From the NCBI GenBank assembly GCA_019637335.1, contig JAHBVV010000016.1, positions 1 through 64,000 on the forward strand: DNA of 64,000 nucleotides, in the 5' to 3' direction. The DNA is from Candidatus Hydrogenedentota bacterium (GTDB lineage Bacteria > Hydrogenedentota > Hydrogenedentia > Hydrogenedentales > JAEUWI01). Under the pieces are notes generated by a model, which saw only the letters and a list, made by a program, of their open reading frames with translations, was not told the DNA's origin and did no database searches. Positions 58,657 through 61,078 of this stretch are shown one piece after another (the first letter of the stretch is position 1; each line of letters starts with the position of its first letter). The position numbers and the translations under genes are program-made.

Positions 58657-59026
58657 AATACGCCTTTATTCTGGTCGAGACGGGAGAGCCGCCACGCTGG
58701 TGAATTGACCCGCGGCAGCCCCGGGCAAAGCGGAATCGTAACACAGTCCCCGCGTGCATTCCCATTGGCGGGCCAACCCGCCATTTGCGGTCGTGCGCCC
58801 CAAAGGCCGCGAAAAGCCCCGTTTTTGCTGGCGTTTTCATTTTGCGCTTGCGTTGCTCGGGAACGGATGCTATACTGACCCTCCGTACCGGGAATCGCGG
58901 CCAGGTGCCGTTGGGAGGGCTGGTCCCGCAGCCCGGTTTCGGGTTGGAGTGCGTGTATCAACGCAAGAACTACAGTATACGTCCCGGGAGAAGTGTGCCT
59001 GCTCGGCGGCCGGAGTCTGCAAGATT
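58657..59026. other. Divergent gap between pdxA and mazG
   Basis: 370 bp without a credible gene; the promoter at 58848-58876 is the only recognisable element. The predicted mRNA leader to ATG 59027 would be about 145 bases. No known riboswitch fold was recognised in it. Confidence 0.5.
58848..58876 (+). promoter_or_regulatory. Sigma-70 promoter for mazG/dnaA region
   Basis: -35 TTGCGT, 17-bp spacer, extended -10 TGC-TATACT. The best-spaced full promoter in the window. Predicted start near 58883. Confidence 0.65.
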
Positions 59027-59470
59027 ATGAACCGTTTTCCTGACGTCACGGATGCCCTGATGGAGTCCATGCGCGTTCAGGCGGCGGCCTCCGCGCAAGG
59101 CTTCGATTGGGACGCGGCAGCGGGCGTCCTGGATAAGGTGGAGGAGGAGGCGCGTGAGATCCGGGAGGCCCTCGAAGCGGGCGACCTCGAACACGCGAGA
59201 CGGGAATTGGGCGATCTGCTGCTTGTTGCCGTCAATTTAGCCCGCTTTCTGGATGCAAGCCCCCGAGACGTCCTGCTCGGCGCCACCGCGCGCTTCGAAA
59301 ACCGCTTCGAGGCGCTTCGCAAAGCACTGGACGCGGAAGGCAAGGCCATCCGCGAATGCAGTTCCGAGGAGCTGGAGGCGTATTGGCAGCGCGTGAAACC
59401 CGCTGCCGATGAACTACTTAGGAAGAGGCTTGACACGGGCGCGCCCCGTGGTGCAAACTCAAGGCCCTGA
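59027..59470 (+). CDS. mazG: MazG-like nucleotide pyrophosphohydrolase (single domain)
   Basis: 147 residues. The all-alpha NTP-PPase signature is present: KVEEEAREIREAL followed by ARRELGDLLLVAVNLARFL (ExxE then ExxD, Mg ligands), then VLLGATARFENRFEAL. It matches the second domain of E. coli MazG; the first is absent. Hydrolyses NTPs to NMPs to clean pools. ATG 59027 has only GGAG at long spacing. Lies just before the candidate origin and dnaA. Confidence 0.85.
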   Translation: MNRFPDVTDALMESMRVQAAASAQGFDWDAAAGVLDKVEEEAREIREALEAGDLEHARRELGDLLLVAVNLARFLDASPRDVLLGATARFENRFEALRKALDAEGKAIRECSSEELEAYWQRVKPAADELLRKRLDTGAPRGANSRP

Positions 59471-59472
59471 TC

Positions 59473-59620
59473 GCTTAAAAGCCTTGATTTTAAAGGCTGA
59501 AATGAGGGTGTGGATAACCTGTTGGGAACCGGTGGAAAACCGGTGGAAAACACGGTTTCGGGATGGTCGGGGTACTGCCCGTGGTGTGAAATTGTTAATG
59601 ATAACGGCATAACTATTGTT
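59473..59620. other. Candidate replication origin (oriC) upstream of dnaA
   Basis: Between mazG and dnaA. A perfect DnaA box TGTGGATAA at 59509-59517 opens four tandem 11-bp units: TGTGGATAACC, TGTTGGGAACC, GGTGGAAAACC, GGTGGAAAACA (59509-59552). Eleven-base spacing puts the boxes on the same helical face. They are flanked by AT-rich, hairpin-prone AGCCTT-GATTTTA-AAGGCT (59480-59498) and by GAAATTGTTAATGATAACGG (59588 onward). The array points to ordered DnaA binding. Only the first unit is a perfect box. Confidence 0.7.
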
Positions 59621-59686
59621 GTGCCAATGCCTGGGCGCGGAAGCGAGAATTGACCTGGTAGTTGTGACGGTTGGACGGGAGTGAGA

Positions 59687-61078
59687 ATGGCCGCAAAGAG
59701 TGATGTGAATCCATGGCAGCTGGCGCAGAAGCACCTGCAAGACGCGCTGGATGAATACAGTTACAAGAACTGGTTCGCTCAGACCCGATTCGAGTCCTGT
59801 GCGAACGGGCAGTTGCTCGTCGGTGTTCCCAGCCAGTTCTTCGCCGACTGGCTTCGCGACCACTACATGGACGCCGTGTGCGACTCGCTCCGCAAGGTGA
59901 TGCCCGACTTTCAGTCCGTCGATTTCATACCGCGGCCGGAACCGGCGCCGGAATCGCCGGAAGTCCGGTTGCCCAGGCCGATGCAGGCCGCGCCCGCCGT
60001 GGCGGCCTCTCGCGCGGCGGCGTCTCGCCGTCCCGTGCGCAACGGCCGCAGCTACAATGGCTTTAACCCGCGCTATACGTTTGATCGCTTCGTGATCGGT
60101 TCAGGAAACCGCTTCGCCCACGCCGCCGCGCGCGCGGTGGCGGAGTCGCCCGGCCGCGCCTACAACCCGCTCTTTCTCTATGGCGGAACCGGGCTCGGCA
60201 AGACCCACCTCATGCAGGGCATCGGGCAGTTCCTCCTGTCAAAGCAGCCCGATCTGCGCTGTGTGTTCATCTCGTCCGAGCACTTCACAAACCAGCTCAT
60301 TCAGAGCATCGCCGAAAAATCGACCCAGCAATTCCGCGCGAAGTATCGGAAAGTGGACGTGCTGCTGATCGACGATATCCAGTTTATTGCGGGCAAAGAA
60401 GCCACGCAGGAGGAGTTTTTCCATACCTTCAATGTGCTCTTCGATATGCACAAGCAGATCGTGCTCTCCAGCGACCGCAGCCCGAAGGAAATGCGCGGGA
60501 TCGAAGAGCGCCTGATCTCCCGTTTTGAGTGGGGCCTGGTGACCGATATCCAGCCGCCGGATCTCGAAACCCGGGTGGCTATCCTGCAGCGCAAGGCGCA
60601 GGAAGAGAACCTCAGCATTCCCGACGACGTGATGCGCTACATTGCGACCTACATCACCACGAATATCAGGGAACTGGAGGGCGCGCTCATCACCGTGCTC
60701 GCCTACAGCCGCCTGACCGAGGAAAAAATATCGATCGCCATGGTCGAGGAAGTACTCCGCGATCTCATCGGCTCCGAGAAGATCAAGCCGGTGACCATTG
60801 AGCAGGTCCAGCGCGCCGTCGCCGATCACTTCGACGTGCGCATTGCCGACCTCCACGGTCGCAGCCGCCAACGTCAGATCGTCAAGCCGCGCCAGCTCGC
60901 GATGTACCTCTGCAAGGAGCTCATCCCGAGCCTGTCCCTGAGCGATGTGGGCGACGCCTTCGGCGGCAAGGATCACACGACCGTGCTCTACGCCTGCGAG
61001 AAAGTGTCCGAGGAAGTGCGGGAGTCGCCCGCCGCGCGGCAGATGGTGGAGCAGCTCACCAAGACCATCCGTTCGTAG
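59687..61078 (+). CDS. dnaA: Chromosomal replication initiator protein DnaA
   Basis: 463 residues. Domain I (WQLAQKHLQDALDEYSYKNW), linker ~90-125, AAA domain III with Walker A LYGGTGLGKTHLM (~165) and Walker B LLIDDIQFIAGKEATQEEFF, and domain IV with DLHGRSRQRQIVKPRQLAMY and FGGKDHTTVLYACEKV, the DNA-binding signature. ATG 59687 has GGGAG five bases upstream; GTG 59681 is less likely. Unlike many bacteria, dnaN does not follow; a repeat region does. Confidence 0.98.
   Translation: MAAKSDVNPWQLAQKHLQDALDEYSYKNWFAQTRFESCANGQLLVGVPSQFFADWLRDHYMDAVCDSLRKVMPDFQSVDFIPRPEPAPESPEVRLPRPMQAAPAVAASRAAASRRPVRNGRSYNGFNPRYTFDRFVIGSGNRFAHAAARAVAESPGRAYNPLFLYGGTGLGKTHLMQGIGQFLLSKQPDLRCVFISSEHFTNQLIQSIAEKSTQQFRAKYRKVDVLLIDDIQFIAGKEATQEEFFHTFNVLFDMHKQIVLSSDRSPKEMRGIEERLISRFEWGLVTDIQPPDLETRVAILQRKAQEENLSIPDDVMRYIATYITTNIRELEGALITVLAYSRLTEEKISIAMVEEVLRDLIGSEKIKPVTIEQVQRAVADHFDVRIADLHGRSRQRQIVKPRQLAMYLCKELIPSLSLSDVGDAFGGKDHTTVLYACEKVSEEVRESPAARQMVEQLTKTIRS

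Follow-up and report, generated by a model that had tools for sequence, protein, structure and literature searches.

A phased DnaA-box array in the dnaA leader of a Hydrogenedentota bacterium as a probable DnaA operator, with a candidate chromosome origin beside dnaN

The window, the 64,000-nucleotide stretch of DNA analysed here, is part of a 141,763-base contig (C16) of its own genome (G000; 7.16 Mb in 55 contigs). The closest relatives of its DnaA in the species collection belong to Candidatus Hydrogenedentota metagenome bins, at 86% identity or less. The dnaA gene and its surroundings contain the following features.

59027..59470, forward strand: mazG-like nucleotide pyrophosphohydrolase gene (open reading frame; Pfam MazG, E 4.7e-8)
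59430..59435, forward strand: conserved dnaA promoter, -35 element TTGACA (promoter pattern in relatives)
59454..59459, forward strand: -10 element CAAACT, unusual (CANACT in relatives), 18 nt after the -35 (pattern in relatives)
59480..59498, forward strand: AT-core element AGCCTT-GATTTTA-AAGGCT, conserved; a palindrome in many relatives, with differing registers
59509..59519, forward strand: array unit 1, TGTGGATAACC, the perfect DnaA box TGTGGATAA plus CC (9/9 matches to TGTGGATAA)
59520..59530, forward strand: array unit 2, TGTTGGGAACC, the weak box TGTTGGGAA plus CC (6/9 matches)
59531..59541, forward strand: array unit 3, GGTGGAAAACC, the weak box GGTGGAAAA plus CC (7/9 matches)
59542..59552, forward strand: array unit 4, GGTGGAAAACA, the weak box GGTGGAAAA plus CA (7/9 matches)
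59580..59629, no strand: AT-rich stretch between array and dnaA (62% AT)
59687..61078, forward strand: dnaA (open reading frame, 463 aa from ATG 59687; an alternative GTG start at 59681 upstream is possible)

A previous examination of the window, made without database searches (the sequence-only reading), had called the last of these genes dnaA, and it is: the product is a true, full DnaA, with N-terminal (Pfam DnaA_N), AAA+ ATPase (Bac_DnaA) and DNA-binding (Bac_DnaA_C) domains. Among solved structures it is best matched by the DnaA chain of 8btg (450 bits), in which GGRDHTT aligns with the HTH motif GGKDHTT of the window's protein, which we take to be the part that reads the DnaA box. The other strong PF00308 match of this genome, on C3 at ~222 kb (L002:4-2208), was considered as a second dnaA and rejected; it joins an MshEN domain to a DnaA-type AAA+ domain, and the DnaA DNA-binding domain is absent. 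PF00308 is found in similarly long frames in many genomes of the phylum among the matches listed, the domain check covering only the C3 frame of G000.

The same reading had described four tandem DnaA-box-like 11-mers headed by a perfect box, and these are read directly at 59509-59552: head-to-tail units with a period of 11 bp, of which the first is a perfect DnaA box and the other three are weak. The interval assigned to them, 59473-59620, contains the array, which is narrower; the proposed consensus TGTGGxxAACC is loose, unit 1 alone fitting it at all its positions. The units share the properties of a head-to-tail, 2-bp-spaced array, namely one orientation, an 11-bp register, and a strong anchor with weak sites. 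The 11-mers directly before and after match TGTGGATAA at 3/9 and 1/9 positions. Summed over four units, the matches reach 29/36, the best score in the 210-bp dnaA leader; among 5000 dinucleotide shuffles of this leader, scanned on both strands, the maximum was 26 and none reached 29. Over seven contigs from four genomes taken end to end (1.32 Mb), a four-unit sum of at least 26 occurs three times, always in front of dnaA. The perfect 11-mer TGTGGATAACC alone is little proof: it is not rare, with four occurrences in the 7.16-Mb genome, and no box cluster was found in the 20 kb around each of its other sites, on C25 and C30. Owing to the degeneracy of the units, a direct-repeat search grouped only units 1 and 3 into a family. 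A different repeat, TGTGYATAAAGTGTGYATAA-like, was seen on several contigs of one relative, G048 (C10, C15, C101, C115 and C234). The AT-rich flanks described earlier hold up, with 56% AT at 59460-59509 and 62% in the stretch between array and dnaA, while the contigs have 64% GC.

Upstream regions of dnaA were obtained from 58 of 68 genomes of the phylum, the other ten having no usable dnaA among the matches listed or reaching a contig end; for dnaN, 46 regions were obtained, the other 22 genomes having no match, a partial match or, in one case, no start. A promoter pattern, first spotted by eye in the leaders of relatives and then counted, is present in 45 of the 58 dnaA regions, compared with 1/58 on the reverse strand and a shuffle mean of 0.57. 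Its hexamers are near-invariant and its spacer, of 18 nt in 39 cases and 17 nt in six, is mostly variable in sequence. In the window this promoter overlaps the 3′ end of the mazG-like gene, and many relatives use the TGA within TTGACA as the mazG stop codon; coding therefore does not explain the conservation of the promoter, which is conserved as DNA. CAAACT matches TATAAT at only three of six positions, which is why a generic promoter scan did not list it, and this poor -10 element counts against the operator reading proposed below.

The array lies just downstream of the promoter, and between the two is the AT-core element, which may be an operator, part of a leader structure or an element of the unwinding type. 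An RNA hairpin between promoter and array was considered and rejected: many single leaders fold (mean z -1.5, n=33), with pairing registers that vary by genome, and RNAalifold, on an alignment that took 28 of the 33 leaders, gave no consensus structure, the pair counts in two registers being mixed. Rfam returned nothing at the leader, its single match, below the gathering score, lying elsewhere (58908-59009).

Among the 45 leaders with the promoter, 26 contain a perfect box, 33 a box on the same strand with at most one mismatch, and 30 a neighbour at 11 bp, where the means of 200 shuffles were 0.015, 0.8 and 0.005, respectively. The 11-bp phasing, and the conservation in front of dnaA on which the earlier claim had been staked, are thus borne out. 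Distances between pairs of forward boxes (at most two mismatches) are most often 11 bp (52 times), followed by 22 bp (21 times) and then 42 bp (six times), and no reverse-strand box was found in the array stretch of any of the 45. Relative to the best box, weak units average 4.9/9 matches at +11 and 4.2/9 at -11, against 2.3 off register. The same-genus genomes G035, G036 and G037 have arrays of four or five units. Of the 33 array genomes, 21 have the start of the first box (at most one mismatch) 76-82 nt after TTGACA and the others have it at 66-69 or 90-101 nt. A fixed helical phase between promoter and array was also tried and discarded, the Rayleigh statistic being 0.742 at a period of 11, 0.766 at 11.5 and as high at 12, so that we claim only a conserved distance. 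The strand, register and place of the boxes are kept in relatives while their sequence drifts. The boxes are linked to the dnaA promoter, as in a DnaA-autoregulated dnaA promoter.

The array is not universal. It is present in 29 and absent in 14 of the 43 genomes in which both loci were read, although part of the absences could reflect diverged boxes in the AT-rich family f6. Placed on a DnaN tree, made by a quick method and with some weak branches and one long branch, presence and absence require at least seven changes, or four counting well-supported branches only. Eight of the 14 array-less genomes retain at least three dnaN boxes, and in family f3 the promoter persists in several genomes that lack the array. 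An oriC is expected throughout a lineage, and an essential origin should not behave as this array does. In all 43 genomes dnaA and dnaN are on separate contigs; in G057 the two contigs run on beyond these genes by at least 105 kb and 31 kb.

We also examined the region of dnaN. Throughout G000, two boxes 2 bp apart with at most two mismatches occur in two places, both on C21 and flanking dnaN, and over the 68 genomes such pairs gave 176 matches, forward and reverse, versus five for a reversed-pattern control. Boxes with at most one mismatch number seven upstream of the genome's own dnaN (and four boxes lie downstream), compared with one at its own dnaA. At least three boxes lie upstream of dnaN in 40 of 46 genomes and fewer in the other six, with forward boxes at -620 to -586 in 30 and at -345 to -325 in 29, and a reverse box at -255 to -238 in 19; at least one box lies within 600 bp downstream in 22 of the 46, two of which have almost no downstream sequence. 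An alignment of 37 of the 46 regions (families f5, f6 and short ones excluded) shows CCTATTACTACTACTACTTGTTTTATATA ~60-90 bp before dnaN, a DnaA-trio-like, AT-rich unwinding motif. The motif scores a mean of 20.6/29 (n=46) versus 15.0 in shuffles, beats every one of 50 shuffles in 32 of the 46 regions, and has its position between -94 and -82 in 33 of the 46; its consensus was derived from the same genomes that were scored, and the better controls are this fixed position and the comparison with dnaA, where the mean of 14.8/29 (best of both strands, n=43) is at background (13.7 in one-strand shuffles). The copy in G000 is degenerate (22/29; best shuffle 20). The most AT-rich 30-mer has 83% AT on the upstream side of dnaN; that of dnaA has 73%, and AT-rich stretches are present there, but no trio-like unwinding motif above background.

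The earlier proposal was that the array marks the origin, with a minimum of cumulative GC skew as its check. Skew was read on fragmented bins and is support, not proof; on none of three contigs is there a switch at dnaA, the values left and right of it being +0.002 and -0.036 on the window's own contig, -0.037 and -0.074 on G035 C4, and -0.072 and -0.053 on G057 C109. Near dnaN the clearest case is G057 C25 (395 kb), where the skew turns once, and clearly, from negative to positive, at 266 kb and thus 23 kb from dnaN (over 100 kb to either side, -0.036 and +0.072; 0/1000 block permutations). On G035 C32 the skew minimum is at 4 kb and dnaN at 5.6 kb, at the contig edge, with the strongest change at 38 kb. 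The dnaN contig of G000 (C21) has -0.008 to the left and +0.065 to the right over only 16 kb, its best upward change being at 16 kb and its cumulative minimum at 76 kb, and is taken as neutral. No switch was found on the dnaN contig of G046 (C23; -0.034, -0.023), which counts against a dnaN origin. The dnaN-linked arrangement is not uniform across genomes of the phylum.

The box cluster, the unwinding motif and the GC skew point to an origin at dnaN rather than dnaA. The candidate oriC of this genome, with a box layout common to many genomes of the phylum, is upstream of dnaN on C21 at ~106.70-107.31 kb (L118:16696-17311), and the origin is most likely here, on another contig than dnaA. In the basal unwinding system of Bacillus subtilis (incC) a box, a C-rich link, TAC/TAT trinucleotides and an AT-rich stretch follow each other in the same order as upstream of dnaN here; in B. 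subtilis dnaA and dnaN share an operon, whereas here they are on different contigs and the motif is degenerate in some genomes (PMC6669920). In Synechococcus elongatus oriC is near dnaN, with a GC-skew shift there, and dnaA is encoded elsewhere (PMC7198777); this dnaN-linked oriC resembles our candidate, in another phylum. A search for literature on Hydrogenedentes or Hydrogenedentota with DnaA or replication origin returned, among the matches listed, none on the origin of the phylum.

The phased boxes had also been presented as a distinct origin layout, but boxes spaced by 2 bp have precedents in E. coli and Thermotoga maritima (PMC6727663; PMC10316083; PMC11317965). In E. coli oriC low-affinity DnaA sites 2 bp apart form two arrays of four, each array with a strong box (R1 or R4) as anchor followed by weak sites in the same direction at an 11-bp period, as in our array (PMC6727663); those arrays are beside the unwinding element, while the present one is in a gene leader with no trio-like motif found adjacent. 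T. maritima DnaA prefers boxes that point the same way with 2 bp between them, and oriC boxes 3-5 of that species, so arranged, give the best two-DnaA complex (PMC10316083); unlike the present array, they are within an origin with trio repeats. E. coli DnaA generally prefers pairs of boxes 2-3 bp apart (PMC11317965). DnaA is also known to act on its own gene. In E. coli it represses both dnaA promoters, a box there being essential for repression, and some of the boxes at these promoters need DnaA-ATP (PMC5835720); B. subtilis DnaA auto-represses dnaA-dnaN (PMC6669920). The E. coli boxes are at or upstream of promoter p2, whereas our array is downstream of its promoter.

We consider it probable that DnaA autoregulates its gene through the array, an operator in the dnaA leader, and that the chromosome origin is elsewhere, beside dnaN. 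Assembly would begin at the perfect box (59509-59517), from which DnaA, preferably in its ATP form, would spread head to tail across the three weak units, one helical turn each, and bind all four cooperatively. Positioned ~45-85 bp past the expected transcription start of the conserved promoter, the oligomer would lower dnaA transcription as DnaA-ATP rises, a negative feedback. With the array downstream of the promoter, unlike the E. coli sites, repression would have to act as a roadblock or through contact with the polymerase.

We regard as unlikely that the array is a functional origin or part of one, or half of a split origin that still works after the separation of dnaA and dnaN. The conserved position and phasing of the array would suit such a role, as would an AT-rich element with a TTATT-like core, located on the flank of the boxes expected for an unwinding element, and bipartite origins exist in Helicobacter pylori (PMC8235120). 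Against this stand the lack of a skew switch at dnaA on all three contigs, a trio-like score at dnaA not above background, and the 14 of 43 genomes without the array; for a split origin, the separate contigs in 43/43 genomes, with G057 as the example, would make cooperation by looping long-range. An array that came by chance to lie in front of dnaA and serves as a DnaA titration or reactivation site (datA- or DARS-like) is likewise improbable: a strong box with neighbours 2 bp away would be a good DnaA sink (PMC11317965), but it offers only about four sites, and titration does not need the fixed tie to the dnaA promoter seen across families.

A more speculative reading, to which we give little weight, treats the leader as an origin-like module, in which the AT-core element (59480-59498) and the same-direction array would enable a DnaA filament to melt the DNA where the dnaA transcript starts, or to distort it, and so to act as a transcription switch, with mechanics as in origin opening. 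Such a module would have survived from an ancestral origin half on the dnaA side and taken on a regulatory role once the origin had settled at dnaN. Slippage that left a non-functional tandem repeat, or mere chance, might account for the weakness of units 2-4 and the near identity of units 3 and 4, but is very improbable given the 0/5000 shuffles and is contradicted by conservation, since box register and strand persist among relatives whose sequences differ.

The operator reading, with the origin at dnaN, corrects a common shortcut: DnaA boxes before dnaA need not mark the origin. In the uncultured Hydrogenedentota the dnaA array and the origin are separable, and the natural losses of the array are a built-in comparison. 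If the reading is true, it would make a case for asking what role a dnaA-leader array has once uncoupled from the origin, and it would give the Hydrogenedentota a candidate oriC with which growth rates could be estimated from read coverage.
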